A stretch of 64,000 nt of DNA from Streptomyces lincolnensis. GTDB taxonomy: Bacteria; Actinomycetota; Actinomycetes; Streptomycetales; Streptomycetaceae. Positions within the stretch are counted from its first letter, which is position 1, and each line of letters opens with the position of its first letter. Made by a program: the position numbers and the translations under genes. Below the pieces are notes generated by a model. It saw only the letters and a program-made list of their open reading frames with translations. It did not search any database and had not been told where the DNA came from. Positions 34,426-53,146 of this stretch are shown in pieces. The stretch is taken from NCBI RefSeq assembly GCF_001685355.1, contig NZ_CP016438.1, forward strand, positions 8,928,001 to 8,992,000, given 5' to 3'.

Positions 34426-34488
34426 TGACGGGAAGCGGCTCCGGCCATGTCACGTTCGCGTAGGCGGCACGATCAGAGGGGAGGGTGC

Positions 34489-36912: not shown

Positions 36913-36935
36913 CCACCGGCCGAAGGAATACGCCC

Positions 36936-37718: not shown

Positions 37719-37814
37719 ACCGCCCCGCCCCCTGTCTCGACCGAACAACGCGATCGAACAGCGCGGCCAAGAAGCACGACACGACTAAGAAGCGCGACCA
37801 AGAAGCAGGCACCC

Positions 37815-39087: not shown

Positions 39088-39951
39088 TCAGGCTGCCCGG
39101 TAGGTGAAGAACCCCTGTCCCGACTTCCGGCCCAGCAGACCCGATTCGACCATCCGGCGCAGCAACGGGGGAGGGGCGTACAGAGGTTCCCGGTACTCCT
39201 CGTACAGCGCCTCGCCTATCGCCGCCACGGTGTCCAGGCCGATGAGGTCGGCGAGGTGCAGCGGGCCCATGGGGTGGGCGCAGCCGGCGGTCATCCCGGT
39301 GTCGATGTCCTCCGCCGTCGCCGTGCCCGAGCTGACCATCCGGACTGCCGCCAACAGGTAGGGAACCAGCAGGGAGTTCACGACGAAGCCCGCGCGGTCC
39401 TCGGCGACGATGGTCTTCTTGCCCAGGATCTCGCCGGCGAAGGCACGCACGCGCAGTTCCGTGGCCTTCGAGGTGTGCAGTGACGGGATCACCTCGACCA
39501 GCGGCAGGACCGGGACCGGGTTGAAGAAGTGCAGGCCGACCACCGCCTCCGGCCGCCCGGTGGCCGCGGCGAGCCGGGCGATGGGGATCGAGGAGGTGTT
39601 GCTGGCCAGCACGGCAGCAGGGCCGGTGACCTTGTCCAACTGCCGGAACAGCGCCGTCTTGGCCTGCTCGTCCTCTACTGCGGCCTCGATGACCAGGTCC
39701 GCCCCGGACAGGCCGGTGAGATCCGCGGTGACCGAGATCCCGGCCAGGGCACGAGCGCGGTCGTCCGGGGTGATGGCGCCGCGCTTCTCCGCCTTGAGCA
39801 GGGAGTCCGCCACGCCGGCCAGACCGGTACGGGCCCTGTCCTCGGTCACGTCGCACAAGATGACGCGCAGCCCGGCCCGGGCGCAGACCTCGGTGATGCC
39901 CCGGCCCATCTGTCCGGCGCCGACGACGCCCACGCGCTTGATCGATGTCAT
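39088..39951 (-). CDS. 3-hydroxyacyl-CoA (3-hydroxybutyryl-CoA) dehydrogenase
   Basis: 287 residues. The Rossmann start KRVGVVGAGQMGRGITEVCARAG is followed by SNTSSIPIARLAAATGRPEAVVGLHFFNPVPVLPLVEVI, carrying the catalytic Ser and His, and AEDRAGFVVNSLLVPYLL. It oxidises (S)-3-hydroxybutyryl-CoA to acetoacetyl-CoA with NAD(P). That is the last step expected after glutaryl-CoA dehydrogenase and an enoyl-CoA hydratase; no hydratase is in the window. Its upstream region carries the same 33-bp element as the acyl-CoA operon. GGAGGA precedes the ATG. Confidence 0.92.
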   Translation of the reverse strand: MTSIKRVGVVGAGQMGRGITEVCARAGLRVILCDVTEDRARTGLAGVADSLLKAEKRGAITPDDRARALAGISVTADLTGLSGADLVIEAAVEDEQAKTALFRQLDKVTGPAAVLASNTSSIPIARLAAATGRPEAVVGLHFFNPVPVLPLVEVIPSLHTSKATELRVRAFAGEILGKKTIVAEDRAGFVVNSLLVPYLLAAVRMVSSGTATAEDIDTGMTAGCAHPMGPLHLADLIGLDTVAAIGEALYEEYREPLYAPPPLLRRMVESGLLGRKSGQGFFTYRAA

Positions 39952-40012
39952 GTGTTCCTCCGCCTGCCCTCTCCGTCTGGTGCAGTGTCGAGCGTAGGCT
40001 TCGTACACCCCC

Positions 40013-40074
40013 TCTGACCTGCTCAGATGGTGCGTATTCGGCGTACAAACATGCGTCGGTTCGGCGTTGACCGG
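40013..40074 (-). promoter_or_regulatory. Second copy of the conserved acyl-CoA element
   Basis: TCTGACCT at 40013 and the 33-bp block 40042-40074 (ACAAACATGCGTC and CGGCGTTGACCGG) repeat 33845-33906 at identical spacing. It lies upstream of the 3-hydroxyacyl-CoA dehydrogenase gene in opposite orientation relative to the gene, and next to the end of the LysR gene. Confidence 0.65.
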
Positions 40075-40127
40075 ACAGCGGCCGCGATGGGCGTGGGGAG
40101 GCGACCTGTCGGTGGGGCGTCGCCGCT

Positions 40128-41036
40128 TCAGCCGGCAGTGACCGTGGCGGCGGCCGCCTCGCGCAGCCGGCGGATCACAGCACGGACCGCGGGCGAGGTC
40201 TCGCCCCTGCGGTAGGCGCCCACCAGCCGGGTGGTCAGCGGTACGTCCGCCAGCGAACGGTAGGCCACACCCGGGATCTGCACGCGGCGCAGTGAATCGG
40301 GGACCAGGGCGACCGCGAGACCACCGCCCACGAGTGTCAGGGCGGCGATGAAGTCCCGCACCGGGGGAGCGCAGCGCGGGCTGAAGCCCCCCTGCTCCGC
40401 CACCTCCAGGATCTGGTCGCGGCAGCCGTACTCCTCGTCGAAGTGCGGGGCCACGAACTGCTCGTCGCGCAGCTTCGCCGCCGGTATCGCCTCGTACGCC
40501 GCGAGCGGCGCGTCGGCCGGAAGCGCCAGGACGACCTTCTCGGTGAGCAGACAGGTGGCCGTGACGTCGGGCGGGTACTCGGGCCGCCAGCGCAGGAAAC
40601 CGACGTCGATGTCCCCGCAGGCCAGTGCTTCCAGCTGCGCCGGTGTCTCCAACTCGCGTACCTGCACGGTGAGGTGAGTGCCGGGGGCCGCGCAGCGGGT
40701 GAGGACGTCGGTCAGTACTCCGGAGAACGCGGCCGAGGCGACGTACGCGATCTGGGCGTGCCCCAGCTCCCCGCGACCGGCACGGCGGCCCACCGCCTCG
40801 GCCCGGGCGACCTGGGCGAGCGTCAGCCGTGCCTCGTCGAGAAACAGCTGCCCGGCACTGGTCAGTGCCGGGCGGGTGCGTCGTCCGCGGTCGATGAGGC
40901 GGACGCCGAGGTGTGACTCCAGCGCTCTGATCTGGGCGCTGAGGGCCGACGGGGCGAGATGCAGACGGTCCGAGGCCCGCGCGAAGTGCAGTTCCTCCGC
41001 GACGACGACGAACGATTCCAGCCAGCGCAGTTCCAT
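40128..41036 (-). CDS. LysR-family regulator
   Basis: 302 residues. The helix-turn-helix is LRWLESFVVVAEELHFARASDRLHLAPSALSAQIRALESHLGVRLIDR. The effector domain follows with LGHAQIAYVASAAFSGVLTDVLTRC. It starts at ATG 41036 after GGAGGA. LysR proteins usually activate a nearby gene. The adjacent 3-hydroxyacyl-CoA dehydrogenase and the acyl-CoA operon share an upstream element, so they are its likely targets. Confidence 0.92.
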   Translation of the reverse strand: MELRWLESFVVVAEELHFARASDRLHLAPSALSAQIRALESHLGVRLIDRGRRTRPALTSAGQLFLDEARLTLAQVARAEAVGRRAGRGELGHAQIAYVASAAFSGVLTDVLTRCAAPGTHLTVQVRELETPAQLEALACGDIDVGFLRWRPEYPPDVTATCLLTEKVVLALPADAPLAAYEAIPAAKLRDEQFVAPHFDEEYGCRDQILEVAEQGGFSPRCAPPVRDFIAALTLVGGGLAVALVPDSLRRVQIPGVAYRSLADVPLTTRLVGAYRRGETSPAVRAVIRRLREAAAATVTAG

Positions 41037-41121: not shown

Positions 41122-42231
41122 TCAGGGCGTCACGACGTAGTTGCTGAATCCGCCGTCGCTGTCCGTGGCGCGTCCCGAGATCGCCTCGTTGACGTTCGAC
41201 AGGGGGAAGGGCTTGGTGATCAGGTAGGACAGGTCCAGGGCTCCGGTGGCCACCATGTCGGCGACTTCCTGGCCCTGCGCGGTGGTGAACCAGTTGGAGC
41301 CGATCAGCTGGACCTGCTCGTCCATGAGCCACTTCACGTCCACGGGCAACCGGTCGGACACGCCACCGACGTTGACCACCTTGCCGCCCCGGCGGACGCC
41401 CTGCATCGAGTCGAGCATCGTCTCGACCGGCGCCTTGGCCCCCAGGGCGCTGATGACGAAGTCCGCTCCCTCGCCGCCGGTGCGGGACTTGGCCCATGCG
41501 CCGGTGGAGCCCTCGCCCAGTCGCATGACCTCGATGCGGTCCGGGGCGAGTTCCTTGACGCGCTTGAGCAACTCCTCGTTGCGGCCGGTTCCGAGGACCT
41601 TGGAGACACCCGAGGCCAGTGCGAGGAGGGTGGAGGCGACGCCGAGGGTGCCGGTGATGCCGTCGATCAGCGCGACCTGGCCGGGGCCGGCGGCGGCGTG
41701 CTTGAGGGCTCCGTAGGAGGTGCCGATGTAGCCGAGCTTGCCGGCCTGCTCGAACGTCATGGTGTCGGGGATGTTGACGATCGAGTGCTGCGGGGCGGTC
41801 ATGTACTCGCAGAACCCGCCGTAGGGGTAGAGATCGAAGATCCGCTGCCCGTCACGGGAGGTGCTGAAGTAGCCGTTCAGGGTGAAGTAGCGGCACCGGC
41901 TCAGCTCGCCGCCGCGGCAGACCTGGCAGCTGCCGCAGGAGCGCAGAGGGCTCACGTAGACCCGGTCGCCGGGCTTGGTGCTGAGCACCGCCTCGCCGAC
42001 CGCCTCGACCACACCCGCGGGGTCCAGACCGAAGATCGCGGGGAGCTTGGGCAGCGGCTGGTGCGGGTACCAGGTGGGCCAGTTGTTGATCACGTTGGCC
42101 ATGTTCGGCACGATCCCGCACGCCTTGACCCGCACCAGTACGTCGGTCGGCCGTGGGGTGGGAACGTCGATCGTGTCCACGGACATCGGCTCACCGAGGG
42201 CGTGCAGTCGTGCAGCGAGCATTTTCGCCAT
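41122..42231 (-). CDS. Zinc-type medium-chain alcohol dehydrogenase
   Basis: 369 residues. The structural zinc site is CGSCQVCRGGELSRC. The catalytic Cys is in RVKACGIVPNMANV, but the usual G-H-E is GLDPAG, so the catalytic zinc may be lost or differently bound. The cofactor fold has GQVALIDGITGTLGVASTLLALASGVSKVLGTGRNEE. It is the last gene of the LacI-controlled operon and probably oxidises or reduces an intermediate of the unknown pathway. The ribosome site lies in a small hairpin (42235-42248, AATAC/GTATT). Confidence 0.88.
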   Translation of the reverse strand: MAKMLAARLHALGEPMSVDTIDVPTPRPTDVLVRVKACGIVPNMANVINNWPTWYPHQPLPKLPAIFGLDPAGVVEAVGEAVLSTKPGDRVYVSPLRSCGSCQVCRGGELSRCRYFTLNGYFSTSRDGQRIFDLYPYGGFCEYMTAPQHSIVNIPDTMTFEQAGKLGYIGTSYGALKHAAAGPGQVALIDGITGTLGVASTLLALASGVSKVLGTGRNEELLKRVKELAPDRIEVMRLGEGSTGAWAKSRTGGEGADFVISALGAKAPVETMLDSMQGVRRGGKVVNVGGVSDRLPVDVKWLMDEQVQLIGSNWFTTAQGQEVADMVATGALDLSYLITKPFPLSNVNEAISGRATDSDGGFSNYVVTP

Positions 42232-42271
42232 TGAAATACTCCGGTATTGATGGGCGGTACGGTGCCGAGAA

Positions 42272-42823
42272 CTAAGAATTCGGGAACGGGTTCGGGTAAT
42301 TGTCCTCAAGGTCGATGTCCAGCAGGCCCATGATGCGAACGCCGGAGTTGTACCAGGCGATGGACAACGACAGTTCGACCATCTGCCGGTCCGTCAGATA
42401 GGCGGCGGCAGCACGCCAGGTCTCCTGCGAGACCTCGACCTGGAGTGTCGACTCCTTGGCGAGGCGCATGATCGCCTTCTCCGTCGAGTCGAACAGGTGG
42501 GACGACTCGAAGTCGGCCACCGCCGCGAGCTGTTCCTCGGTCAGCCCGGCCTTGAGTCCGTGCGACTGGTGGTGCGCGACCTCGTACGAGGACCGGGTCG
42601 CGTGCCCCACCGTCAGGATCGCCAGCTCGCGCAGCTTGGGACTGAGGTCGGCGGCCCGCAGCGAGTTGGCATAGGTCAGGAAGGCGTCCAGCTGGGCCGG
42701 TGCGTTGGCCAGCGCGAGGAAGATGTTCGCCGTCGGCACCTTGCGCTCGGCTTCCAGCCGGTCGTACAGGGGCTTGTGCGACTCTTTCGCGTCCTCGCGG
42801 CGCAGATAGGGAACTCGTGTCAT
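42272..42823 (-). CDS. AhpD/carboxymuconolactone-decarboxylase-fold protein
   Basis: 183 residues, all helical. LSPKLRELAILTVGHATRSSYEVAHHQSHGLKAGLTEEQLAAV is the CMD core. The Cys-x-x-Cys of peroxidase-type AhpD is missing (ATRSSYEVAHH), as in the decarboxylase-like branch. It lies between the ADH and dioxygenase genes in the operon. A decarboxylase or isomerase role on a ring-cleavage product is possible; the reaction is not known. Confidence 0.82.
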   Translation of the reverse strand: MTRVPYLRREDAKESHKPLYDRLEAERKVPTANIFLALANAPAQLDAFLTYANSLRAADLSPKLRELAILTVGHATRSSYEVAHHQSHGLKAGLTEEQLAAVADFESSHLFDSTEKAIMRLAKESTLQVEVSQETWRAAAAYLTDRQMVELSLSIAWYNSGVRIMGLLDIDLEDNYPNPFPNS

Positions 42824-42854
42824 GGCGTCTCCTTGGGGACGGACATACGAACGG

Positions 42855-43859
42855 TCAGGGGAGGGGCTGTTCGAGCAGGAACCGCTCCAGTGACATGGGC
42901 TTCGGCAGTTCGGCCGGCGGGATCTGGGGCGTGCCGACGAAGGGGGATGCCTCGAAGTACCACTTCTCCAGGGCCGGCAGGCCCCAGCGGGCGTTGGTGC
43001 TCAGCGATGCCGCGTCCCAGCGGACGGGCTCGATTTCCGTGTCGATCGTCTGGTAGTGGCTGTTGAAGACCTCCACCCGGTGACCGTCGGGATCGCGGAG
43101 GTAGACGAAGAGCATCCCGCCCGGACCGTGCCGTCCGGGGCCGCGCTCCACGCCGTCGCCGTAGCCGAGGATGCCCGCCCAGTCGCAGGCGGTGAAGATG
43201 TCATGGCTCTCGGAGACGGTGTAGGCGAAGTGGTGCAGGGCCGGCCCGGTGTTCTCCACGATCGCCAGGTCCAGACAGGTGCCCTTGCGGTACATGAACG
43301 CACCCAGCAGCTTGTCGCCGTGCTCCAGGTACTCCGAGTTGCGGAAGCCGAGCTCGCTGTAGAACGCGCACAGCTCGAAGGTGTCGGGCGCGAAGATCTG
43401 GTAGTGGTCCAGCCGCTGCGCGTGGGCACCCTTGTACCGCTCGAAGTCGATGTGCAGCCGCGGCCGGGTCTCCATGTGCGCGCACAGTTCCAGTGGTGTG
43501 CCGATGGGGTCGCTGACGTGCAGGGTGCGGCCCTGGTACGGGACGTCGACCCACTCGGCGGGCAGCCCCCGCTCACGGAACCAGGCGTACGCGAGATCCA
43601 GGTCCTCGTCGAAGAAGACCCGGAAACCGATCCTCCGGCACGAGCCCGCGCCCTCCTCGTCCAGCTCCAGCACGAGACTGTGGTGACAGGCTTCGGCCAG
43701 GCCGCGCAGATAGCAGGTGCGCTCGTCCTCGTCGCTGACGACGAGCCCCAGCGCTTTCACATAGAAGTTCCGGCTCTCGGCCAGGTCGGCGACCGTGAGA
43801 CGGACGTGGCTGGAGCGGGTGATGTTGAAACTCGGGCGCAGATTGACGGGTGGCAGCAT
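42855..43859 (-). CDS. Extradiol ring-cleavage dioxygenase (two-domain VOC type)
   Basis: 334 residues in two VOC domains, as in catechol 2,3-dioxygenase and homoprotocatechuate 2,3-dioxygenase. Probable iron ligands are the His in RLDHYQIFAPD (about 152), the His in ALHHFAYTV (about 212) and the Glu in GHRVEVFNSHY (about 263). The C-terminal lid has WGLPALEKWYFEASPFVG. It opens a catecholic ring next to one hydroxyl. It lies 60 bp downstream of the enolase-like gene and 31 bp upstream of the AhpD-like gene. Confidence 0.88.
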   Translation of the reverse strand: MLPPVNLRPSFNITRSSHVRLTVADLAESRNFYVKALGLVVSDEDERTCYLRGLAEACHHSLVLELDEEGAGSCRRIGFRVFFDEDLDLAYAWFRERGLPAEWVDVPYQGRTLHVSDPIGTPLELCAHMETRPRLHIDFERYKGAHAQRLDHYQIFAPDTFELCAFYSELGFRNSEYLEHGDKLLGAFMYRKGTCLDLAIVENTGPALHHFAYTVSESHDIFTACDWAGILGYGDGVERGPGRHGPGGMLFVYLRDPDGHRVEVFNSHYQTIDTEIEPVRWDAASLSTNARWGLPALEKWYFEASPFVGTPQIPPAELPKPMSLERFLLEQPLP

Positions 43860-43919
43860 GCGGGCCTCCGTGCTCCGATCGGCTCTGGAATGCGATGACT
43901 GTAATACTTCGATGCCGTT

Positions 43920-45230
43920 TTACGGCTTGGTCGTAATGGACCCTGATCCGGCGAATGCGAGGGCGGACCACCCGCTGAATTCCGCGGATTCACCGAGGGA
44001 CTCCTCGATGCGCAGAACCTCGTTCCATTTCGCCATGCGCTCGGAGCGCGTGAACGAGCCCACCTTCAGCTGGCCCGCGTCCCATCCGACGCTCAGGTGG
44101 GCGATGGTGATGTCCTCGGTCTCCCCGGAACGCGCCGAGACGATCGTGCCGAAGCCGGCGTCCTTTCCGGCCCGCAGCGCCTGGAACGCCTCGGTGACCG
44201 TTCCGGCCTGGTTCGGCTTGATGAGAACGGCGTTCACCGTTCCGGAGGTGGCCGCCGCCTCCACCCGCTTGGCGTTCGTGACCAGGTAGTCGTCGCCGAT
44301 CACCTGGCAGCGGTGGCCGTAGCGCCGGGTGAACTCCAGCATGCCGTCATGGTCGTCCTCGCCCACCGGGTCCTCGACGGACAGGATCGGATACTGCTCG
44401 ATCCAGCCGCCCAGCATGTCGATCAGCGCTTCGGTGCCGAGTGTGCGGTCGTCCAGGGCCAGCGTGTACCGCCCGCCACTGCCGAACTGCGAGGCGGCGA
44501 CGTCCAGTGAGATTCCCACCTGGGTCGAGGGAGCGAAGCCCGCGGTCTCGATGGCGCGCGTGAGCGTCTCCAGCGCTTCCTCGTTGGAGTCGAACGCGGG
44601 CCAGAATCCACCCTCGTCGGCCACGCCCTGCGCCTTGCCCGCCCGTCGCATGAGGCTTCCGGCCGCCCGGTAGATCTCCGCGGTCCAGTCCAGGGCTTCC
44701 GAGAAGCTCGCTGCCGCGGGGCACATCACCATGAAGTCCTGCACGTCGACCCGGCGGTCCGCGTGGGCGCCGCCGCCGAAGATCTGGATCTCCGGCAGCG
44801 GGATGCGGACCGGCCGGCCGCCCGCCAGGTGCTGCCACAGCGGTACGCGAGCCGACGCGGCGGTGGCGTGCAGGACGGCCATGGACGTGGCCACGATCGC
44901 GTTTCCGCCGAGACGGCTGCGGTCGGGGGTTCCGTCGAGGTCCACCAGGAGCCGGTCGACGGTCTCCTGGTCGGTCGCGTCGAGGTCCAGGAGGGCGGGC
45001 GCGATCTCCTGGTTCACCGAGCCCACCGCGCGGTGGACGTCGTACCCGCCGAAGCGGTCGCCGCCGTCGCGCAGGTCGAGCGCCTCGCCCAGGCCCGTCG
45101 AGGCCCCCGCCGGTGCGATGGCCCGCCCGATCGCGCCGTCCGCCAGGTGGGCTTCGACCTCGACGGTCGGCCGACCACGTGAATCCCACACCCTGCGGCC
45201 GTGGAGTTTGGCGATCCGCGCGTCTGTCAT
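43920..45230 (-). CDS. Enolase paralogue with altered active site
   Basis: 436 residues, full enolase length. Conserved features are WDSRGRPTVEVEA, GGAHAD, ADEGGF (Glu206), SLDVAASQF (Asp243), SVEDP (Glu286), IGDDYLVTN (Asp313), LIKPNQ (Lys338) and GQLKVG (Lys389). Two active-site positions differ from all ordinary enolases: VQDFM has Asp165 where QEFM carries Glu168 (yeast numbering), and VSARSGETED has Ala366 in place of His373. Mg ligands and catalytic lysine are kept, so it may dehydrate or enolise another acid. It heads a catabolic operon under a LacI-type operator. Housekeeping enolase is expected elsewhere. Confidence 0.9.
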   Translation of the reverse strand: MTDARIAKLHGRRVWDSRGRPTVEVEAHLADGAIGRAIAPAGASTGLGEALDLRDGGDRFGGYDVHRAVGSVNQEIAPALLDLDATDQETVDRLLVDLDGTPDRSRLGGNAIVATSMAVLHATAASARVPLWQHLAGGRPVRIPLPEIQIFGGGAHADRRVDVQDFMVMCPAAASFSEALDWTAEIYRAAGSLMRRAGKAQGVADEGGFWPAFDSNEEALETLTRAIETAGFAPSTQVGISLDVAASQFGSGGRYTLALDDRTLGTEALIDMLGGWIEQYPILSVEDPVGEDDHDGMLEFTRRYGHRCQVIGDDYLVTNAKRVEAAATSGTVNAVLIKPNQAGTVTEAFQALRAGKDAGFGTIVSARSGETEDITIAHLSVGWDAGQLKVGSFTRSERMAKWNEVLRIEESLGESAEFSGWSALAFAGSGSITTKP

Positions 45231-45396
45231 GGCGGTGCAACCTTTCGGAGTTCGGACGATCGGGGGAGGACGGGGCCCGTACCCGGGCCGGTCACTGCGG
45301 CGAGGACGGGGTGGGGTCGCATCAGCGGTGCGGCTTCCGGACGGGCACCGGGGGCAAAGGGCGATGACGAGGGTTGCTCATTCATCGCGGCAGGAA

Positions 45397-45410
45397 TGCT
45401 AACGATAGCG
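45397..45410. promoter_or_regulatory. LacI operator 1 (enolase operon)
   Basis: TGCTAACGATAGCG, 12 of 14 to the perfect palindrome TGCTAACGTTAGCA found at 47465. It lies about 165 bp upstream of the enolase-like gene. Confidence 0.75.
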
Positions 45411-45511
45411 CAATCGTGCGAAGCGCCGGCGTGGATGTCAAGGGGGCAGGTAGCGCTATGTGCCTGTGGGCGGGCAGTTTGCGCCCCCTTGTTGGCTCAC
45501 CGCCGGGCCGG

Positions 45512-45525
45512 TGCTATCGTTCGCA
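45512..45525. promoter_or_regulatory. LacI operator 2 (FMN reductase)
   Basis: TGCTATCGTTCGCA, 12 of 14 to the palindrome, about 115 bp upstream of the FMN reductase start. Confidence 0.75.
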
Positions 45526-45641
45526 CAATTCCGTTCCGGCGATGACTCCGACGGACCCGCGCTCTTCCTGGACGGACGGACAGCACAGGAAGAGGCGGGT
45601 CCGCCGGGCCGGGCCGCGGCCGAAGAGAAAGTGAGCCCGAT

Positions 45642-46235
45642 ATGGCACCCGAGCCTTCTGCGGCGCCGATGACCCTCACCACCGTGGTGGCCAGTACGCG
45701 TCCCGGACGGGTGGGCAGGTCCGTCGCGGACTGGTTCTCTGCCCGGGCGGCCGAGTGCGACGAGTTCGAGTCGCACACCGTCGACCTGCGGGAACTCGCC
45801 CTGCCCTTCTTCGACGAGCCGCATCCGCCCGCCCTGCGTCAGTACACGAAGAGCCACACCCGTGAGTGGAGCCGGATCGTCGACGCGTCGGACGCGTTCG
45901 TGTTCGTCACCCCGGAGTACAACGGCGGTTTCCCCGCCCCGTTGAAGAACGCGTGGGACTACCTCGTCGTGGAGTGGCGGCACAAGCCGGCCGGCTTCGT
46001 GAGCTACGGAGGTGTCTCGGCGGGCACCCGGGCGGTTCAGATGGGCAAGCAGGTCGTCGCGAACCTGAGGATGCTGCCGATCGGTCCGACCGTGAGCATC
46101 CCGTTCGTCAACGAGTGCGTCGAGGAAGGGGCCTTCCGGCCCGGCAAGATTCACGAGGCCGCTGCCGAGCAGGTGCTCGACGAGCTGGTGCGCACCGCCC
46201 GCGTCATGCGCCGGCTGCGCAGCGGAACGTACTGA
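45642..46235 (+). CDS. NAD(P)H-dependent FMN reductase/flavodoxin-fold protein
   Basis: 197 residues. VVASTRPGRVGRSVADWF is the FMN phosphate loop, and FVTPEYNGGFPAPLKNAWDYL is the family signature (PEYNxxxPxxLKNAxD). FVSYGGVSAGTRAVQMGKQV binds the ring. It could reduce flavin for an oxygenase or act as a quinone reductase in the pathway. It has its own LacI operator and is followed by an 18-bp-stem terminator. Confidence 0.92.
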   Translation: MAPEPSAAPMTLTTVVASTRPGRVGRSVADWFSARAAECDEFESHTVDLRELALPFFDEPHPPALRQYTKSHTREWSRIVDASDAFVFVTPEYNGGFPAPLKNAWDYLVVEWRHKPAGFVSYGGVSAGTRAVQMGKQVVANLRMLPIGPTVSIPFVNECVEEGAFRPGKIHEAAAEQVLDELVRTARVMRRLRSGTY

Positions 46236-46249
46236 AAGCCCCTGGATGT

Positions 46250-46290
46250 GCGAAGGCGCCCGGAGCACGCGGCTCCGGGCGCCTTCGCAT
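46250..46290. terminator. Bidirectional terminator
   Basis: Perfect 18-bp stem (TGCGAAGGCGCCCGGAGC at 46250-46267; complement 46273-46290) with a 5-nt loop, between the convergent FMN reductase and LacI genes. Confidence 0.9.
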
Positions 46291-46314
46291 GTACGGCGGG
46301 TCGGCGCCCGCGGT

Positions 46315-47346
46315 TCAGCGGGGCCTGGACGGAGCCGGGCCACCGGGAGCTGCCGTGCTGCCGCGCAGAACCAGTGATCCGGGGGAGACCGAGGTGTACG
46401 GGCCGTCGTTGGTCGGCTTGGTCTTGAGGCGGCGCATCATCCACAGGGCGCAGCCGGTGGCCATCTCCTGGATCGGCAGGCCGACCGTGGTCAGCCCCGG
46501 GCCCCACCAGGAGAACCCCGGCTCGTCGCCGAACCCGACCACGGACAGTTCCCCGGGCACCTTCACGCCCTGCTGGGACAGCTCCTCCAGGACGCCGAGG
46601 GTGAGCTGGATCGATCCCAGTACGAGCGCGGTGGGCGCATCCGGCTCCTTGAGCAGCCGCCGTACCGCCTGGCGGCCGTGGTCCACGGACGACGGCGGCC
46701 CCAGTTCCGCGCGTCCGGCGTCGTCGGGGAGGCCGCCTTCCTGAAGGGCGCTGCGGAAGCCCTCCAGGCGCTCCGCACCCGTGGGCAGTTCGACCGGGCC
46801 GCCCAGGTAGGCGATGCGGGTGTGCCCCAGCTCCACGAGATGGGCGGTGGCCCGGCGCAGTGCCTCACGGTCGTCCACGCCGAACCACTGGGCGCCGAGC
46901 GACGGGTGGCGGCGCAGCAGCTGAAGGTGCGGCATCGCGCGCAGGAGCTTGACGGAGTCGCTGTGCGGGCGCGCGGTGGGGACGATGATGACGCCCGCCA
47001 CGCGGGTCGCGGACAGCTCCCGCAGATGGCGAAGCTCCACCATCCGGTCGTCGTCGGTCTCCGAGAGCATCAGCTGGTAGCCCTCGGCCTCCATGTTCTT
47101 GGACAGCTCGTGCGCGATGGTCGAGTAGAAGCTGTTGCGGATGTCCGGGATCACCAGCGCGACCACGTTGCTGGACGCGCCGCGCATCATCCGCGCCGCG
47201 CGGTTGCCGACGTAGCCCATCTCGGAAGCGGCCTGGCGGACCCGGAACTTGGTCTCCTCGCTGATGCGGGAGTCGTCGGAGAGCGCCCGGCCGACCGTCG
47301 AGACGGACAGTCCGAGGCGTTCGGCGATGTCCTTGGTGGTGATCAC
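46315..47346 (-). CDS. LacI-family regulator of the catabolic island
   Basis: 343 residues. The helix-turn-helix and hinge are TTKDIAERLGLSVSTVGRALSDDSRISEETKFRVRQAASEMGYVGN. The ligand domain starts VVALVIPDIRNSFYSTIAHELSKNMEAEGYQL, with WFGVDDREALRRATAHLVELGHTRIAYLGG. The C-terminal tail VSPGSLVLRGST is normal. The recognition helix SVSTVGRAL fits an operator with a central CG. It lies in the middle of five matching palindromes, one upstream of its own GTG start, so it very likely controls the whole island and itself. Confidence 0.93.
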   Translation of the reverse strand: MITTKDIAERLGLSVSTVGRALSDDSRISEETKFRVRQAASEMGYVGNRAARMMRGASSNVVALVIPDIRNSFYSTIAHELSKNMEAEGYQLMLSETDDDRMVELRHLRELSATRVAGVIIVPTARPHSDSVKLLRAMPHLQLLRRHPSLGAQWFGVDDREALRRATAHLVELGHTRIAYLGGPVELPTGAERLEGFRSALQEGGLPDDAGRAELGPPSSVDHGRQAVRRLLKEPDAPTALVLGSIQLTLGVLEELSQQGVKVPGELSVVGFGDEPGFSWWGPGLTTVGLPIQEMATGCALWMMRRLKTKPTNDGPYTSVSPGSLVLRGSTAAPGGPAPSRPR

Positions 47347-47394
47347 GTACTGGGCCCCCTGGGGTGACTGGTCCCGTGCCGCTTACTTTCCGTG

Positions 47395-47408
47395 TGCCAA
47401 CGATAGCG
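47395..47408. promoter_or_regulatory. LacI operator 3 (autoregulation)
   Basis: TGCCAACGATAGCG, 11 of 14 to the palindrome, 49 bp upstream of the lacI-family start. Confidence 0.7.
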
Positions 47409-47464
47409 TTCGCGTCGCGCTCGGTGGTCGGAGCGGAGTGACTCCGGGATGACCTTTATTGCTG

Positions 47465-47478
47465 TGCTAACGTTAGCA
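47465..47478. promoter_or_regulatory. LacI operator 4 (FAH hydrolase), perfect palindrome
   Basis: TGCTAACGTTAGCA is a perfect 14-bp palindrome 54 bp upstream of the FAH-family gene. Confidence 0.8.
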
Positions 47479-47531
47479 TTGCTGGATGGGCCGTGCAGCC
47501 GTCCCTGGCTGCCTAGTTGCGGAGGTATTCC

Positions 47532-48311
47532 GTGCGGATCGTCAGGTACGCCGTCGACGGTGTGCGTCACTACGGTGAACTGGAAGCCGGTGACGCCCGA
47601 ATCGCCAGATTCGAGGGTGATCCCTTCACCGGGCTGTCCCCTACGGGGCGCATCGACAAAGCCGGCGACGTGGTCGTCCTATCGCCGCTGGAGCGGCCCC
47701 GGATCTTCGGCTTCGCCTACAACTACGCCTCACACGTCGACGAGACCGACCGTGAGATTCCGGAAGTTCCCGTGTGTTTCATGAAACCGAGCACCGCGGT
47801 GGTGGGGCCGGGTGACGCCATCGTCTATCCGGCGGACGGCGAACTGGTTCATTTCGAGGGCGAGTTGGTCGTCGTCATTGGAAAGGAAGCCCGCCATGTG
47901 AAGCCTGCCGAGGCCCATGAGTACATCCTCGGCTATACGTGCGGCAATGATGTCAGCGATCGCATCGTCCAGCGCAAGGAAAGCAAATACGGCACGCTTC
48001 TGATCGGAAAGGGGCAGGATACCTTCGCGCCCCTCGGGCCCGTCATCGCCACCGAACTCGACCCCTCGGGACTGTCGCTGACGACGCGGGTGAACGGCAC
48101 CGTCGTGCAGTCGGCGAGCACGGCCGACCTGCTGCTCGCCGTCCCCGACATCGTCAGCTACCTCAGCCGCCGTCTGACGCTGCTGCCCGGCGACGTGATC
48201 ATGACCGGTACGCCTTCCGGAGTCGGGCCGATCCGTCCGGGCGACGAGGTCGAGGTCGAGATCGAGGGCATCGGTGTCCTGCGGAACCCGGTCGTGGCCG
48301 AGAACCTCTGA
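47532..48311 (+). CDS. Fumarylacetoacetate hydrolase (FAH) family protein
   Basis: 259 residues. RIFGFAYNYASHVDETD, VCFMKPSTAVVGPGDAIVYP, HFEGELVVVIGKEARHV (the E-x-E metal ligands), YILGYTCGNDVSDRIVQRKE (Asp ligand) and LLPGDVIMTGTPSGVGPIRPGDEVEVEIEGIG are all family signatures. Members hydrolyse or decarboxylate acylpyruvates and oxo-acids made by ring cleavage. That fits the extradiol dioxygenase in the same regulon. GTG 47532 follows GGAGG at 6 nt. Confidence 0.93.
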   Translation: MRIVRYAVDGVRHYGELEAGDARIARFEGDPFTGLSPTGRIDKAGDVVVLSPLERPRIFGFAYNYASHVDETDREIPEVPVCFMKPSTAVVGPGDAIVYPADGELVHFEGELVVVIGKEARHVKPAEAHEYILGYTCGNDVSDRIVQRKESKYGTLLIGKGQDTFAPLGPVIATELDPSGLSLTTRVNGTVVQSASTADLLLAVPDIVSYLSRRLTLLPGDVIMTGTPSGVGPIRPGDEVEVEIEGIGVLRNPVVAENL

Positions 48312-48325
48312 CCCGGGACGCCCAC

Positions 48326-48360
48326 GGGGCCCGCCCACCGCTCGGCGGTGGGCGGGCCCC
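48326..48360. terminator. Terminator after the FAH gene
   Basis: 16-bp perfect stem GGGGCCCGCCCACCGC and complement with a TCG loop, 14 bp after the stop. Confidence 0.9.
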
Positions 48361-48466
48361 TCGGCATGTCGGCGGTGCGCCACCGTGTCCTGCCCATGGA
48401 GTGTCGCCGTGTCGCACCGGCATGGCCGGATGCGGCACGGCGACAGATGCGCGCCGGACGGGCCCG

Positions 48467-49735
48467 CTAGCGGACCGCGTCGCTGAACTGCGATGTGCGG
48501 ACGAAGACGAGAGCGGCGACGGCCACCAGCGGCAGCACCGTGACCTGGAGCAGCCCGGCCCGGCCCCAGCCGAAGGAGTCCACCAGGGCGGCGAAGAGCA
48601 GGCCCGAGAACGCCGCCGGCCCGTAGTAGCTGGAGACGAAGAGTCCGGAGGCTCGGCCGATCTGTTCGGGGCGGACGGCCCGCTGGATCGCGCTGTTGGT
48701 GTTCGGGTAGATGAAGCCCAGCCCGAAGGCGCCCATGAGGAAGGCGTACACGCACTGGACGCCGACGCCGGCCTGCGTTGTGTAGATGCACAAGCTGATG
48801 GCGGACACGGCCAGCAGGCTCACTGCCAGCAGGGTGCGCTGGTTGACGCGGTCTCCGAGCCAGCCGCCGAAGATGGCCGTCATCCCGCCGAACCCGAGCA
48901 GGCTCATGGCCAGCGCGGCCTGGTCGGTGCTGTAGTGCAGCGAGGTGATGAGGTACGTCGGATAGAGACCGAGGAACCCGTAGATGGCCACACCGCTGAC
49001 GACGGAGTGGACGGCCAGGGCGATGGTGTTGCGGTTGTAGGCGGAGGCCGGCATGTGCTCGTAGGTCTTCGTCGCGACGACCTTTGCCACGGACGTCTCG
49101 GTCAGGCCGGTCTTCACGAGGAACAGGGAGGCGGCCGCGATCAGCAGCCCGGCCGCGCCGAACACGTAGAAGGGCGAGTGCCAGGTGCCGTGCGTGCTCA
49201 TGAGCCGGACGCCGATCAGCGGGGCGATGAAGACGCCGATGGAGTAGCCCGCACCGATGACACCGAAGGCGAGGCCGCGCCGGTGGGCGAAGAAGGCGCC
49301 CATCGCCGCGAAGATGGCGGCGGACTGCATGCCCTCCCCGAAGCCCGAGACGACCCGGTACGCACTCATGTCGGCGAAGCCGGTCGCCAGCGGCGTGGCC
49401 ATCGTGCCCAGGGAGTAGATCACGATGCTGACCAGCAGCACGGTCTTGCGGCGGAAGCGGTCCAGGAGGTAGCCCGCGGGAAGGCCGGCCAGGGCCATGC
49501 CGAGGGTGAAGTTGGTGGCCAGCAGTCCGCCCTGCTCCAGCGAGAACCCGTAATCCGCACGGATGTTGGGCAGCAGGGGAGGGAAGACCTGGCGGTCCAT
49601 GGCGTTGACCATGTAGGAGAGGACGATCAGCAGGAAGCCCACCGTGATCATGGGGCGGGAAATGCGAGGCCGGTTGCGTTCCTGTGTTTCACCGGCGGGC
49701 ACCGCCGTGGTGTCGACTTGCGCTGCGTGAGTCAT
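48467..49735 (-). CDS. MFS transporter (probable uptake for the island)
   Basis: 422 residues with twelve helices. MITVGFLLIVLSYMVNAMDRQVFPPLLPNIRADYGFSLEQGGLL is the opening of the ACS/metabolite-H+ symporter branch used for aromatic and organic acids. GLPAGYLLDRFRRKTVLLVSI is motif A. ATG 49735 has AGGAG at 6 nt. It is divergent from the hydroxyacid dehydrogenase operon and shares its upstream LacI operator, so it most likely imports the pathway substrate. Confidence 0.88.
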   Translation of the reverse strand: MTHAAQVDTTAVPAGETQERNRPRISRPMITVGFLLIVLSYMVNAMDRQVFPPLLPNIRADYGFSLEQGGLLATNFTLGMALAGLPAGYLLDRFRRKTVLLVSIVIYSLGTMATPLATGFADMSAYRVVSGFGEGMQSAAIFAAMGAFFAHRRGLAFGVIGAGYSIGVFIAPLIGVRLMSTHGTWHSPFYVFGAAGLLIAAASLFLVKTGLTETSVAKVVATKTYEHMPASAYNRNTIALAVHSVVSGVAIYGFLGLYPTYLITSLHYSTDQAALAMSLLGFGGMTAIFGGWLGDRVNQRTLLAVSLLAVSAISLCIYTTQAGVGVQCVYAFLMGAFGLGFIYPNTNSAIQRAVRPEQIGRASGLFVSSYYGPAAFSGLLFAALVDSFGWGRAGLLQVTVLPLVAVAALVFVRTSQFSDAVR

Positions 49736-50496
49736 AGCGGCTCCTGAAGAGGAATGGGCCGCGGCAGGCCGCGGCGGATCCATCGCCGGCACGGGGCTGT
49801 ACGGGCGATGACGAGAAGCGGTGAGCTGAACACGGACTCGATTCGGCGACGGCGAGGTTTTCGCCGTTCGGCGGAATGCGGGAGGTGGGCTGCCGCGCGG
49901 TCGGACACCGCATGCGAATTCAGCCGTATACCGCCCGTCGGGACGTCCGTGGCTATGGCGTCTTCGACAGCCGGACCTCGTGCGGACACTCATTGGTCAC
50001 ACGGTCGGCGCTGGCAGAAACCATGAAGGGAAGTTCTCGGCCCGTCAAGATGTGAGCAGCGGATTTCTTCGGCGGTCCTCGATTTCCTGCGGTGACGGGC
50101 TTCTCCGCTTCCGAAACAGGTGCTGCCGCCCGGTGTCAATGGGTGCTGCCGCCCGATGTCGAGGATCAGGAGAGCGCCGCACTCTTGACGTGTCGAAGGA
50201 CGTGAATGCTATCGTTAGCACCGCGTGGCTGTGACAGAGTGACTCGACATGCCCCGGCACCTCGTGACCCGTTCCAGGGGCGTACCGCCGCGCCCGCCCC
50301 GACCACAAGTCGGCGAGCGTCGGCTACACCCGACCGAGCCCAGCGACCCCCTCCCTTCCACTCGTGGCGGGGCGGCCCATCGGACAGGCCGTCCACCGCC
50401 TTTCAGGGTGGCAACCAGAACCCGCTCACCGGACACGACCGAGCCCGACGCCCGGCCGTCCGCCGCGGCCGCACGATCATGCGAGGACGACCTGCT
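49736..50496. promoter_or_regulatory. Long divergent control region
   Basis: No convincing gene. It contains a near-perfect 19-bp direct repeat (GGTGCTGCCGCCCGGTGTC at 50119-50137 and 50142-50160), the promoter and LacI operator 5, and a plus-strand leader of about 275 nt before the hydroxyacid dehydrogenase. A GC-rich frame in the leader (50249-50500) has no homology I know. Confidence 0.55.
50185..50220 (+). promoter_or_regulatory. Promoter overlapped by LacI operator 5
   Basis: TTGACG at 50185-50190 and TATCGT at 50210-50215 (spacing 19). The operator TGCTATCGTTAGCA (50207-50220), 13 of 14 to the perfect palindrome, covers the -10 region, so binding would block polymerase. Confidence 0.75.
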
Positions 50497-51498
50497 ATGA
50501 ACCCATCGAGCCGCCCGGCAACTGTGCTGCTCACCGACTACGCCTGGCCCGACGACTCCGTCGAGCGAGCGGTCATCGAAGGCGCGGGCCACACCCTCGT
50601 GACCGGCCCCGCCGAACCCGCCTCCGCCGAGGCCATCGAGGAACTGGTGGCCGAACACCGGCCGGCCGGGATCCTGACCTGCTGGGCGCCCGTCTCCGCC
50701 ACCGCGATCGGCGCCTCGCCGGACCTGCGGATCGTGGCCAGGCTCGGCGTCGGCCTCGACAACATCGCCGTGGACGCCGCCACCGAGCGGGGCGCGTGGG
50801 TCACCAACGTTCCGGACTACTGCGTCGAGGAGGTCTCGGACCACGCCGTCGGCATGGTGCTGGCCTGGACGCGCGGCCTGGCGGTGTTCGACCGGGAGGT
50901 CCGTGCGGGCCACTGGGACCCCGCGAGCGCCCGGCTGCGCCGGCTGTCGGCGCTGACCTGCGGCGTCGTCGGGTACGGACGGATCGGGCGCGCCACAGTA
51001 CGCAAGCTCGGCGGGTTCGGCTGCCGGATCCTGGCACATGACCCGCACCCGCCGAAGGATGCCCCCGGCGTGGAGATGGTGGGCCTGGAGGAACTGCTCC
51101 GCCGCAGTGACGTGGTGATCCTGCACGTGCCGCTCACACCCGGCACGCACCACATCGTCGGAGCCGAGCAACTGGCGCTGATGAAGCCCGGCGGCCTGCT
51201 GGTCAACGTCAGCCGGGGCGGCCTGGTGGACACCGACGCGGTGACCAAGGCGCTCGACAGCGGGCACCTGGACGGGGCCGCCCTCGACGTGCTGGAAACC
51301 GAGCCGCACGTCCCCGACGAACTGCTGGACCAGCCGGGCGCGCTCCTCACCCCGCACGTGGCCTTCTCCTCCGACGCGTCGGTCACCGAACTGCGCCGCC
51401 GCGCCGCCGAGGAGGTCGTACGGATCCTCGCGGGCGAGGCGCCGGCCCACGCCTGCAACACCCCCCGTGGCCCGAGCGCCGGTGCGGGTGACCGGTGA
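50497..51498 (+). CDS. D-isomer-specific 2-hydroxyacid dehydrogenase
   Basis: 333 residues. RLGVGLDNIAVDAA, the NAD fold CGVVGYGRIGRATVRKLGGFG, the catalytic Arg in VNVSRGGLVDTDA, the Glu in ALDVLETEP and the His in LLTPHVAF are all present. This is the CtBP/phosphoglycerate dehydrogenase branch. It reduces or oxidises a 2-oxo/2-hydroxy acid. The ATG at 50497 follows GAGGA. It overlaps the kinase gene by one base and is first in a three-gene operon. Confidence 0.92.
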   Translation: MNPSSRPATVLLTDYAWPDDSVERAVIEGAGHTLVTGPAEPASAEAIEELVAEHRPAGILTCWAPVSATAIGASPDLRIVARLGVGLDNIAVDAATERGAWVTNVPDYCVEEVSDHAVGMVLAWTRGLAVFDREVRAGHWDPASARLRRLSALTCGVVGYGRIGRATVRKLGGFGCRILAHDPHPPKDAPGVEMVGLEELLRRSDVVILHVPLTPGTHHIVGAEQLALMKPGGLLVNVSRGGLVDTDAVTKALDSGHLDGAALDVLETEPHVPDELLDQPGALLTPHVAFSSDASVTELRRRAAEEVVRILAGEAPAHACNTPRGPSAGAGDR

Positions 51499-52550
51499 TG
51501 AGCACGGCCGCCGCGCAGGTCGGCCCGGATCCCGCACTGGCCGACTTCCTGCTCGCCCACAAGCTGGCCGAGCCCGGCGAAGCCGCGCACTGGACACCGC
51601 TGGCCGGTGGCGTCTCGTCCGACCTGTGGCGGGTGGACCTGCCGGGACGGTCGCTGTGCGTCAAGCGCGCCCTGGCCCGGCTCCGCGTCGCCGCCGACTG
51701 GCAGGCGCCGGTGTCGCGCAACGCCTACGAGTGGGCGTGGATGCGGTTCGCAGCCTGGCACGAGCCGGACAGCGTGCCCGAGCCGCTGGCCCACGACGCC
51801 GAAGCCGGTCTCTTCGCGATGGCCTTCCTGCCCCCCGAGCAGTACCCGGTGTGGAAGGCACAGCTGTTCGCCGGACAGGTGGAGGCGGCGACCGCCGGGG
51901 CCGTCGGACAGCTGCTCGGCACCCTGCACGCGGCGAGCGCGGGCGATGTCACCCTCGCCGAGGAGTTCGCCACCGACGACAACTTCCACGCGCTGCGCAT
52001 CGAGCCGTACCTGCTGGCCACCGCCGCCGCACATCCCGACCTCGGCGACATCCTCCAGGGCCTCGCCGCCCGCACGGCCGGCACACACCTGGCCCTGGTG
52101 CACGGCGACGTCAGCCCCAAGAACATCCTTGTCGGCACCTCGGGGCCCGTGCTGCTGGACGCCGAGTGCGCCTGGTACGGAGACCCGGCCTTCGATCTGG
52201 CCTTCTGCGTCAACCACCTGCTCCTCAAGAGCCTCGTCGTACCCGGCCACCGAGCCGATCTCCTCGACTCCGCCCGGGTGTTGGCCGAGGAGTACGTCCG
52301 TTGCGTCGACTGGGAACCCGTGCCCGTCCTTGAGGCGCGGGCCGCATCACTGCTGCCGGCGCTGCTGCTGGCGCGCGTGGACGGCAAGTCCCCGGTCGAG
52401 TACCTCACGGACGACCCGCACCGGCAGTTCGTACGGACAGTGGCGTCGTCCCTGCTCCGGGCACCTGCACTCACCATGGCGGACGTCCTGGACGCCTGGG
52501 CGACCGCGCTCAAGTCGCAGACCGAACCCGACAGCCGTATACGCGACTGA
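51498..52550 (+). CDS. Aminoglycoside-phosphotransferase-fold small-molecule kinase
   Basis: 350 residues. The N-lobe has LAGGVSSDLWRVDLPGRSLCVKRAL, with the ATP-binding Lys in CVKRAL. The catalytic loop is LVHGDVSPKNILV (HGDxxxxN) and the metal loop LLDAECAWYGDPAFDLAF. Such kinases phosphorylate hydroxyls of sugars, choline, homoserine or antibiotics. Here, in a catabolic operon, it may phosphorylate the substrate or an intermediate. An enolase paralogue in the same regulon makes a phosphorylated intermediate plausible. TGATG overlap with the upstream stop sets the start. Confidence 0.88.
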   Translation: MSTAAAQVGPDPALADFLLAHKLAEPGEAAHWTPLAGGVSSDLWRVDLPGRSLCVKRALARLRVAADWQAPVSRNAYEWAWMRFAAWHEPDSVPEPLAHDAEAGLFAMAFLPPEQYPVWKAQLFAGQVEAATAGAVGQLLGTLHAASAGDVTLAEEFATDDNFHALRIEPYLLATAAAHPDLGDILQGLAARTAGTHLALVHGDVSPKNILVGTSGPVLLDAECAWYGDPAFDLAFCVNHLLLKSLVVPGHRADLLDSARVLAEEYVRCVDWEPVPVLEARAASLLPALLLARVDGKSPVEYLTDDPHRQFVRTVASSLLRAPALTMADVLDAWATALKSQTEPDSRIRD

Positions 52551-52615
52551 CCCAGCCGACTCGACGGATCGGGCGGTTCCGCCGGAACCGCCCGAGGAGA
52601 ACCGAGGAGACACAC

Positions 52616-53146
52616 ATGCGCAGAGTCGTCACCGGCCATGACGAGAACGGGAAGTCGGTCGTCGTCAGCGACGGCCCCGTGCCGCGCAGCCGGGAGTTCA
52701 CCAGCCTGCCGGGCTGGGTGTCCCGCCTGCCCTGGGCCACCGAACCCGGCGAGCGGGTCAGCCGGACCGGGGAGGACCCCACGCCGAAGGTCACCAGCCT
52801 GCTCCCGGCGCCCGGCGGCACACGCTTCATCGTGCTGACCTTCCCGCCGCACACCGCGATGGCCGACCCGGCTTTCGACCCCGTCGCCTTCGACCGCGAA
52901 CAACGGGCCGACTCACCCGGCCTCGCCGAACTCATCGAACCCGACGGCATGCACACCACACCGACCGTCGACTACGGCATCGTGCTCCAGGGCGAGATCG
53001 CCCTCGAACTCGACGACGGCCACCGCACCCTGCTCTCGGCAGGCGACATCGTGATCCAGAACGGCACCCGCCACGCCTGGCGCAACCACGGCGACCAACC
53101 CGTCACGATGGCCTTCGTCCTCGTCGGCGCGGAGTGCGGCCGCTGA
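52616..53146 (+). CDS. Cupin-domain protein
   Basis: 176 residues. The beta-barrel core is VDYGIVLQGEIALELDDGHRTLLSAGDIVIQNGTRHAWRNHGDQPVTMAFVLVG, that is, G(x)5Hx-type motif 1 altered (no His pair; YGIVLQGEIALEL) and motif 2 with His in RHAWRN. HTTPTVDYG supplies a possible upstream His. Cupins of this kind occur beside ring-cleavage and oxo-acid pathways as isomerases or dioxygenases. GAGGAG precedes the ATG. It is the last gene of the operon. Confidence 0.85.
   Translation: MRRVVTGHDENGKSVVVSDGPVPRSREFTSLPGWVSRLPWATEPGERVSRTGEDPTPKVTSLLPAPGGTRFIVLTFPPHTAMADPAFDPVAFDREQRADSPGLAELIEPDGMHTTPTVDYGIVLQGEIALELDDGHRTLLSAGDIVIQNGTRHAWRNHGDQPVTMAFVLVGAECGR

Follow-up and report, generated by a model that had tools for sequence, protein, structure and literature searches.

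A probable catabolic island with an altered enolase, an associated kinase and conserved LacI-type operators in Streptomyces lincolnensis

A stretch of 64,000 nt from the soil bacterium Streptomyces lincolnensis (NZ_CP016438.1, positions 8,928,001-8,992,000 of the forward strand; GCF_001685355.1) – here called the window, with coordinates counted from its first letter – carries a probable catabolic island in which genes of the ring-cleavage type lie together with an enolase altered in its active site, an APH-fold kinase, a D-2-hydroxyacid dehydrogenase and a LacI-family regulator. The initial annotation placed the island at 41122..53146 and knew of no described pathway with its combination of genes. 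The genes are present in that interval, but the island reaches further left, to about 34447; the families given were right for the ten proteins scanned, and the name cupin is that of the initial annotation, an NCBIfam search of the protein having returned nothing. Searches of open-licence papers for ring cleavage involving an enolase, for methoxyhydroquinone, methoxypyruvate and syringol/3-methoxycatechol, and for the elimination of methanol turned up no described pathway with this gene set.

The LacI regulator and its operators

The LacI-family regulator (46315..47346, - strand) combines a Pfam LacI helix-turn-helix, which contains STVGRAL, with a periplasmic-binding-like domain (Peripla_BP_3), as in local repressors of this family. 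Five palindromes resembling TGCTAWCGTTAGCA, at 45397, 45512, 47395, 47465 and 50207, had been reported to be restricted to the divergent promoter regions of the locus, and all five are placed as claimed, within three such regions; two copies (47465 and 50207) are perfect, rather than the one reported. Operator 1, CGCTATCGTTAGCA (45397..45410, better matched on the - strand, 1 mismatch), and operator 2, TGCTATCGTTCGCA (45512..45525, + strand, 1 mismatch, 115 bp from operator 1), lie between the divergent enolase (-) and FMN reductase (+) genes, and a similar sequence occupies the place of operator 1 in other Streptomyces. Operator 3, CGCTATCGTTGGCA (47395..47408, - strand, 2 mismatches), and operator 4, TGCTAACGTTAGCA (47465..47478, + strand, a perfect palindrome with 0 mismatches), separate the LacI gene (-) from a gene of the fumarylacetoacetate hydrolase (FAH) family (+). 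Operator 5, TGCTATCGTTAGCA (50207..50220, + strand, 0 mismatches), lies between an MFS transporter gene (-) and the hydroxyacid dehydrogenase gene (+) and overlaps the first ATG of the long open reading frame (ORF) 50206-51498, and the dehydrogenase therefore probably starts further down.

At up to 3 mismatches the motif gives 11 strand hits in the window, relative to a mean of 1.6 in shuffled sequence (n=100, largest 8), and only one match, at 14995 and with 3 mismatches, falls outside the locus. In the complete 10.3-Mb genome every match with 0 or 1 mismatch belongs to this locus; matches with 2 mismatches occur outside it at genome positions 4661241, 5834134 and 9808219. Because the backward control is commoner than the motif at up to 2 mismatches genome-wide (19 versus 14 strand hits), only matches with 0-1 mismatch are informative, and counting at 2 mismatches was dropped. 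Among 199 Streptomyces genomes the exact motif is present in 12, with 34 strand hits and 1 for the backward control, and these are the same 12 genomes that hold the kinase (E at most 1e-60), counted as raw strains with shared ancestry not corrected for. All 34 hits share a contig with the kinase and lie within about 4.1 kb of it; the random scatter that would have refuted the initial annotation is thus not seen.

The pattern extends to the relatives recovered with the kinase, a scan that found 474 related stretches in the genome collection, of which the best 80 loci were kept (31 Streptomyces and 49 others). A LacI protein of at least 54% identity is encoded in 38 of the 80. Each of these 38 loci has one or more operators with no more than 1 mismatch; of the other 42, whose stretch shows no such LacI, 5 do as well (L001, L005, L013, L039, L048). 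Relative to the homologues of window genes these sites are intergenic and adjoin island members, with one exception inside the LacI frame of L041; some others overlap over-long ORFs, gene calls in the fetched loci being mechanical (GC bias plus homology, with some starts and small genes wrong, and names taken from family searches). STVGRAL is kept in the LacI relatives that share the operator; in the L071 protein (46%) the motif is ATVSRAL, and no site with 2 or fewer mismatches lies in that locus. Genome-wide strand counts at up to 1 mismatch in ten relatives, G001 to G010, are 7+8, 10+7, 4+4, 5+5, 2+2, 1+1, 6+6, 9+7, 8+7 and 0+1, versus 3+3, 2+0, 0+2, 1+2, 2+2, 1+0, 0+1, 2+3, 1+1 and 1+1 for the backward controls, an excess in seven and little or none in G005, G006 and G010.

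LacI, operator and island genes also recur together in several Proteobacteria (Beta- and Alphaproteobacteria). At the level of sequence, the co-inheritance of operator, regulator and genes is a solid result. LacI would bind TGCTAWCGTTAGCA and repress, to be released by an intermediate of the pathway as its ligand. The initial reading of the island is supported, although the single LacI switch that it proposed fits the three divergent regions and does not extend to the second block of genes, which has its own LysR and is without these operators.

The altered enolase and its kinase

The island enolase (43920..45230, - strand) scores well above the curated cut-off for phosphopyruvate hydratase (TIGR01060, 478.9 bits, cut-off 300). 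In a study of the S. elongatus enzyme, His367 and Glu168 form hydrogen bonds to a water 3.5 A from C3 of phosphoenolpyruvate (PEP), and a water thought to add to PEP is bonded to Glu209 and Glu168 (PMC8996150). Aligned on the S. elongatus sequence, position 168 is Asp in 65 of 65 enolases from kinase loci and position 367 is Ala in 64 of 64, the row of L015 being gapped there. Apart from that gap, Glu209, Lys339, Asp246, Glu287, Asp314, Arg368, Ser369, Lys390, Ser48 and His157 are invariant. The window copy thus shares with normal enolases the fold, the metal ligands, the base lysine, the phosphate-binding Arg-Ser and Glu209, and differs at the pair that holds water at C3. The 65 proteins (the window's and 64 from loci, alignments under 300 residues – L022, L032, L056 – having been dropped) were all reached through the kinase, and their count cannot show that enolase and kinase never part.

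Asp/Ala enolases away from the kinase were sought in the window genome and in ten module-bearing genomes. The two other enolases of the window genome keep Glu/His. One of them, L082 (G000:C1:9884952-9885806), is 59% identical to the S. elongatus enzyme and sits apart from the main Streptomyces copy in the tree, grouping with L148 and L149. In the ten further genomes 12 ordinary copies have Glu/His and lie outside the module loci, and 12 Asp/Ala copies are all within them. A very divergent enolase-like protein, L163 (G024:C1:30268-31065), has Gln at 168 and keeps the His; it was left out of both groups, and the marginal match L161 was set aside. In a maximum-likelihood tree of 44 rows, which used part of the kinase-locus set, one branch separates Asp/Ala (28) from Glu/His (15) with 91/96 support, and it appears in 100% of 200 bootstrap trees. 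The Asp/Ala side is split deeply into two clades, whose identity to the window enolase is about 41-46% in one and 58-96% in the other; a single origin is possible. Together with the kinase, these enolases are found in three phyla: Actinomycetota, Pseudomonadota (alpha, beta and Pseudomonas) and Acidobacteriota.

In the enolase reaction Glu209 protonates the leaving group. The altered enzyme has most likely kept this role of Glu209, the removal of the C2 proton and a 2-phospho-acid as its substrate. Because only the leaving-group side is altered among the twelve positions compared, and both replacements are smaller, that substrate most likely bears at C3 something other than a free hydroxyl, or has an additional group on that carbon. 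These residues support an altered subfamily rather than a spare glycolytic copy.

The kinase (51495..52550, + strand; PF01636, 68.8 bits) has the catalytic motifs HGDVSPKN and DAE of the APH fold and is a proposed 2-hydroxyacid 2-kinase linked to the altered enolase. Its matches to kinases of known substrate are all far below cut-off (MTR kinase, 46 of 275 bits; corramycin phosphotransferase, 35 bits). In genome G120 the kinase match (G120:C1:6620089-6621114) has one in-frame TAG, possibly a decayed copy or an end effect, and the G024 match likewise shows one TGA.

Among the 49 non-Streptomyces loci, identity thresholds identify the enolase in 42, the dehydrogenase in 19, and the dioxygenase, the alcohol dehydrogenase and LacI in 13 each; in 27 of the 42 holding both, the gap between enolase and kinase is below 150 bp. 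No enolase was found within the fetched stretch at 14 of the 80 loci (L001, L005, L013, L016, L018, L019, L023, L031, L033, L035, L055, L065, L066, L079). For L031 (G001) and L035 (G008, in L112) it is elsewhere in the genome, other stretches are cut by contig ends, and L018, L019 and L065 show none within 10-kb flanks on both sides. The altered enolase and kinase occur together at L030, L034, L036, L038, L057, L063, L068 and L075 (Burkholderiales or Betaproteobacteria); such a lone pair looks as if it were a general salvage step. At L080 (3474-15245) the pair lies beside an IlvD/EDD dehydratase, a PfkB kinase, a ferredoxin reductase, a P450 and a VOC protein, a sugar-acid flavoured setting, and at L060 (6153-12267) a TRAP transporter and a lyase of the petal-death-protein/methylisocitrate lyase family precede kinase and altered enolase. 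Judged by sequence, the altered enolase-kinase module is a solid finding.

Other island genes and sister clusters

The D-2-hydroxyacid dehydrogenase gene (50497..51498, + strand, start inferred) encodes a protein nearest to phosphoglycerate dehydrogenase and glyoxylate/hydroxypyruvate reductases. The extradiol-type ring-cleavage dioxygenase (42855..43859, - strand) has homoprotocatechuate 2,3-dioxygenase (HpaD/HPCD) as its closest solved family and falls below the NCBIfam HpaD cut-off (292.3 of 321.4 bits). In 31 aligned dioxygenases – the window's and those of 30 loci, alignments under 250 residues having been dropped – the 2-His-1-Glu iron triad is kept throughout. In HPCD numbering, the Arg243/His248-type motif and the Tyr257 position are shared, whereas all 31 rows have Leu in place of the acid-base His200, Phe in place of Trp192 and Gln in place of Asn157. 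The island has HpaD-like and HpaG-like proteins in common with the homoprotocatechuate (hpa) meta-cleavage pathway; HpaE, HpaF, HpaH and HpaI, searched for in the island alone, are not among its ten scanned proteins, the cupin-named protein and the 3-hydroxyacyl-CoA dehydrogenase (the electron-transfer flavoprotein (ETF), LysR and CoA-transferase were not scanned), and the dehydrogenase, kinase, enolase and a glutaryl-CoA-type tail are present instead.

Next to the dioxygenase gene are those for an AhpD-like/carboxymuconolactone decarboxylase family protein (42272..42823, - strand; PF02627) and a zinc-type medium-chain alcohol dehydrogenase (41122..42231, - strand), which is 74-82% identical in the Proteobacteria clusters and has scyllo-inosose 3-dehydrogenase as its best named NCBIfam match, far below cut-off (132 of 450 bits). 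The remaining genes encode an NADPH-dependent FMN reductase family protein, possibly a quinone reductase (45642..46235, + strand; PF03358), a FAH-family protein proposed as an acylpyruvate hydrolase (47532..48311, + strand, start inferred in an ORF from 47517; PF01557, HpaG-like below cut-off), an MFS transporter (48467..49735, - strand; best NCBIfam match the aromatic acid:H+ symport family, far below cut-off at 114 of 419 bits) and the co-conserved protein called cupin (52616..53146, + strand).

To the left lies the acyl-CoA block: a class III CoA-transferase by similarity (34447..35706, + strand, true start probably further down), 46% identical to the CoA_transf_3 protein of Bradyrhizobium locus L050; a glutaryl-CoA dehydrogenase (35737..36912, + strand); ETF beta (36936..37721, + strand, end approximate) and alpha (37815..38780, + strand) subunits, named by reading the translations; a 3-hydroxybutyryl-CoA dehydrogenase (39088..39951, - strand; NF005875, 423 bits, cut-off 319); and a LysR-family regulator (40128..41036, - strand), likewise named by reading. 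Long ORFs at 38702-40048 and 39410-39997, in other frames over the 3-hydroxyacyl-CoA dehydrogenase gene, are taken as GC-rich artefacts. The closest solved chains to the acyl-CoA dehydrogenase are glutaryl-CoA dehydrogenases (best 3swo, 644 bits); the first other named class, acyl-CoA oxidase 4, reaches 216 bits, and one chain labelled acyl-CoA dehydrogenase, 4w9u, scores 350 bits. In all 10 other island-bearing Streptomyces the 3-hydroxyacyl-CoA dehydrogenase and LysR genes adjoin the alcohol dehydrogenase gene, with CoA-transferase and acyl-CoA dehydrogenase in the same 13-kb stretch, and ETF alpha was detected in 7 of the 10. LysR occurs in 13 of the 199 genomes, including all 11 with the ring-cleavage gene. 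Sequence and co-occurrence thus assign this block (34447-41036) to the island. The two dehydrogenases are by sequence, and the CoA-transferase by similarity, members of the lower pathway of glutarate and lysine; the window version differs in being co-inherited with a ring-cleavage island. Its CoA-transferase is not a core gene: it occurs in 14 of the 199 genomes, comprising all 11 that have the ring-cleavage gene and three that do not (G116, G158, G162). Loci of Burkholderia, Paraburkholderia and Trinickia have a CoA-transferase (68-72%) and, where covered, an acyl-CoA dehydrogenase (83-84%) like those of L050. The window pair is 46% identical to the L050 pair. The succinate-glutarate CoA-transferase model (cut-off 750) gives the L050 CoA-transferase 520 bits, and the L050 acyl-CoA dehydrogenase is matched slightly better by FadE-type models than by the glutaryl-CoA model, with no score above cut-off. 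In Streptomyces a likely second product is thus a five-carbon dicarboxylic acid or a relative of one.

Co-conservation, which the initial annotation had proposed as a check, is borne out: a core of LacI, hydroxyacid dehydrogenase, kinase, enolase, ring-cleavage enzyme, AhpD-like protein and alcohol dehydrogenase, accompanied by the same operator, is found again in Beta- and Alphaproteobacteria. The ring-cleavage enzyme is at least 88% identical in 11 of the 12 kinase-bearing Streptomyces, the exception, G024, having the other cluster type; relatives at only 40-41% occur in two further genomes, G041 and G164, and as a second gene in G150. Gene order mostly repeats in Streptomyces loci uncut by a contig end, with members lacking in L015 and L018, a reduced L019 and rearranged L027 and L028. 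Variovorax, Ramlibacter, Duganella/Pseudoduganella, Trinickia and Bradyrhizobium have an enolase-dioxygenase-AhpD-alcohol dehydrogenase block, with other genes interspersed and some loci end-cut; the dehydrogenase, the kinase and in most cases LacI are also present there, in other orders. The island is, by these searches, rare and patchy in distribution, and has probably spread horizontally. Strict-threshold phylum-wide searches matched only the window's own genome among 396, which has no bearing on function.

A second cluster type, under the same operator, again has the dehydrogenase, kinase and enolase, here in the company of FAH and VOC proteins. At L113 (Streptomyces sp. LUP47B) perfect operators precede a block of FAD aromatic hydroxylase, alcohol dehydrogenase, quinone-reductase-like protein, P450 and reductase, a LacI-FAH-dehydrogenase-enolase-kinase block, and a pair of a polysaccharide-deacetylase-family protein and FAH. 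This genome (G007; L113, L121, L027) has several operator-bearing loci, with two altered enolases of the 41-46% type and one of the window type, and its loci also hold the P450/FAD-hydroxylase block and a sugar-type ABC transporter. The L113 P450 is closest to CYP199 enzymes (313 bits), of which CYP199A4 demethylates 4-methoxybenzoate. At L072 of Pseudomonas viridiflava a VanA-type Rieske oxygenase is followed by a glutathione-independent formaldehyde dehydrogenase (767 bits, cut-off 637) and, past a divergent LysR gene, by FAH, VOC, FAH, dehydrogenase, enolase, kinase and FAD monooxygenase genes. The stretch (L072:3402-10984), with LysR alongside, has no LacI homologue and no operator at up to 1 mismatch, and the module may have changed regulator in Pseudomonas. 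A Rhodococcus P450, PbdA, is described as an O-demethylase of para-methoxylated benzoates (PMC11530827).

A proposed route and its alternatives

We propose that the island serves to break down an oxygenated, probably methoxylated, aromatic acid, probably a plant compound, with the altered enolase yielding PEP by expelling a group other than water, a reading that we regard as evenly poised between right and wrong. Until an intermediate appears, LacI on its operators would keep the operons for uptake, ring cleavage and the pyruvate side silent. Ring opening by the dioxygenase would be followed by cleavage by the FAH-type enzyme, giving a short dicarboxylic acid and a 3-substituted pyruvate. The D-2-hydroxyacid dehydrogenase would reduce the substituted pyruvate, the APH-fold kinase would phosphorylate the 2-hydroxyl of the reduced acid, and the altered enolase would form PEP, the group expelled being not water but the 3-substituent, for which our best guess is methanol derived from a methoxyl. 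The dicarboxylic half would pass to the CoA-transferase, glutaryl-CoA dehydrogenase and 3-hydroxybutyryl-CoA dehydrogenase. We infer the step order, the substrate and the leaving group; the operators, co-inheritance, active-site change and gene families are read from sequence.

The glycerate branch of the serine cycle leads from hydroxypyruvate to PEP by the same types of reaction in the same order (reduction, phosphorylation, elimination); the proposed module differs in its APH-fold kinase, unlike known glycerate kinases, and in an enolase altered at the leaving-group site. The kinase and the hydroxypyruvate-reductase-type dehydrogenase, under the same operators, would supply the 2-phospho-acid from a substituted pyruvate, and when meta-cleavage opens a 3-methoxycatechol-type ring on the side remote from its methoxyl, that methoxyl should, by reasoning, end up on C3 of the pyruvate. 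It is possible, but doubtful, that the altered enolase is ether-cleaving and, with the kinase and dehydrogenase, salvages 3-methoxypyruvate from such a cleavage as PEP and methanol. We know of no enolase reaction in catabolism that expels methanol.

Several observations weigh against the proposed route as a whole. No recognised gene of the window's island is an O-demethylase or aromatic hydroxylase, nor was a formaldehyde dehydrogenase recognised there, and the methoxyl argument is borrowed from relatives with the other enolase clade. Among the loci examined for them, the CYP199-like P450 recurs only at 26-32% (L028, L080) and the formaldehyde dehydrogenase only as 30% hits (L006, L020, L025). 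The only further matches to the VanA-like protein are in L069 (68%) and L027 (32%). Homologues of the ring-cleavage enzyme and LacI are absent from the stretches of L030, L034, L036, L038, L057, L063, L068 and L075, and some Alphaproteobacteria have TRAP transporters, a sugar-acid dehydratase or a methylisocitrate lyase/PEP mutase family lyase nearby. The dioxygenase, because it has lost His200, may not cleave an ordinary catechol, and no substrate that we have drawn fits every gene. Syringate, 3-O-methylgallate, homovanillate, methoxyhydroquinone, benzoxazinoids, 4-O-methylglucuronate and pinitol were each considered, each leaves some gene unexplained, and none is claimed.

One alternative is a plain glycerate route, from 3-hydroxypyruvate formed by ring cleavage through D-glycerate and 2-phosphoglycerate to PEP and water, with the enolase a co-regulated spare carrying tolerated changes. 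The nearest relatives of the dehydrogenase and an enolase score above the phosphopyruvate hydratase cut-off are in its favour; we think it unlikely, since the genome already has two enolases with normal residues and since neutral decay would not produce the same-letter replacement of both water-holding residues in all compared kinase-locus enolases, in three phyla. The same module might instead act on a carbon substituent at C3, an enlarged pocket taking a 2-phospho-3-hydroxy acid longer than three carbons, with water leaving and a longer enol phosphate formed. Shortening of two side chains facing C3 fits this, as does the action of FAH-family relatives on longer diketo acids; sugar-acid type dehydrations are normally ATP-free, however, and no gene for a longer 2-oxoacid is recognised, which makes it decidedly unlikely.

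A non-aromatic substrate, such as a methylated cyclitol or sugar acid whose enediol is cleaved by the dioxygenase-like protein, would suit the LacI-type control, the scyllo-inosose 3-dehydrogenase match (however far below cut-off), the ABC transporter of sugar type that adjoins a perfect operator in one relative, the IlvD/EDD and PfkB genes near the pair in L080 and the missing His200. The FAD aromatic-ring hydroxylase, CYP199-type P450 and VanA-like oxygenase of the sister clusters speak against it, as does an MFS protein whose nearest transporter family, though far below cut-off, is of the aromatic-acid type, and we consider it quite improbable. An enolase paralogue is found in antibiotic pathways, carboxyphosphonoenolpyruvate synthase (a name that our literature search did not return), and the island could on that precedent belong to a biosynthetic cluster, for example of phosphonate-like chemistry. 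Such an origin is highly improbable: no biosynthetic enzymes are recognised, transporter, ring-cleavage and acyl-CoA genes are present, and the genes are spread across three phyla.

Enolase ranks with the most conserved of all enzymes, and its genes are almost always assigned to glycolysis. If the proposed expulsion of a group other than water is correct, genes of the Asp/Ala clade are misnamed as phosphopyruvate hydratase, the NCBIfam model for which accepts the window copy, and a route from aromatic ring to PEP is missing from pathway maps. Were the leaving group methanol, methoxylated lignin fragments could be used without oxidative O-demethylation of that methoxyl, and lignin-type methoxyl would have a new, oxygen-independent fate after ring opening. 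Through the conserved operator the regulon, and from it the substrate, can be approached directly.

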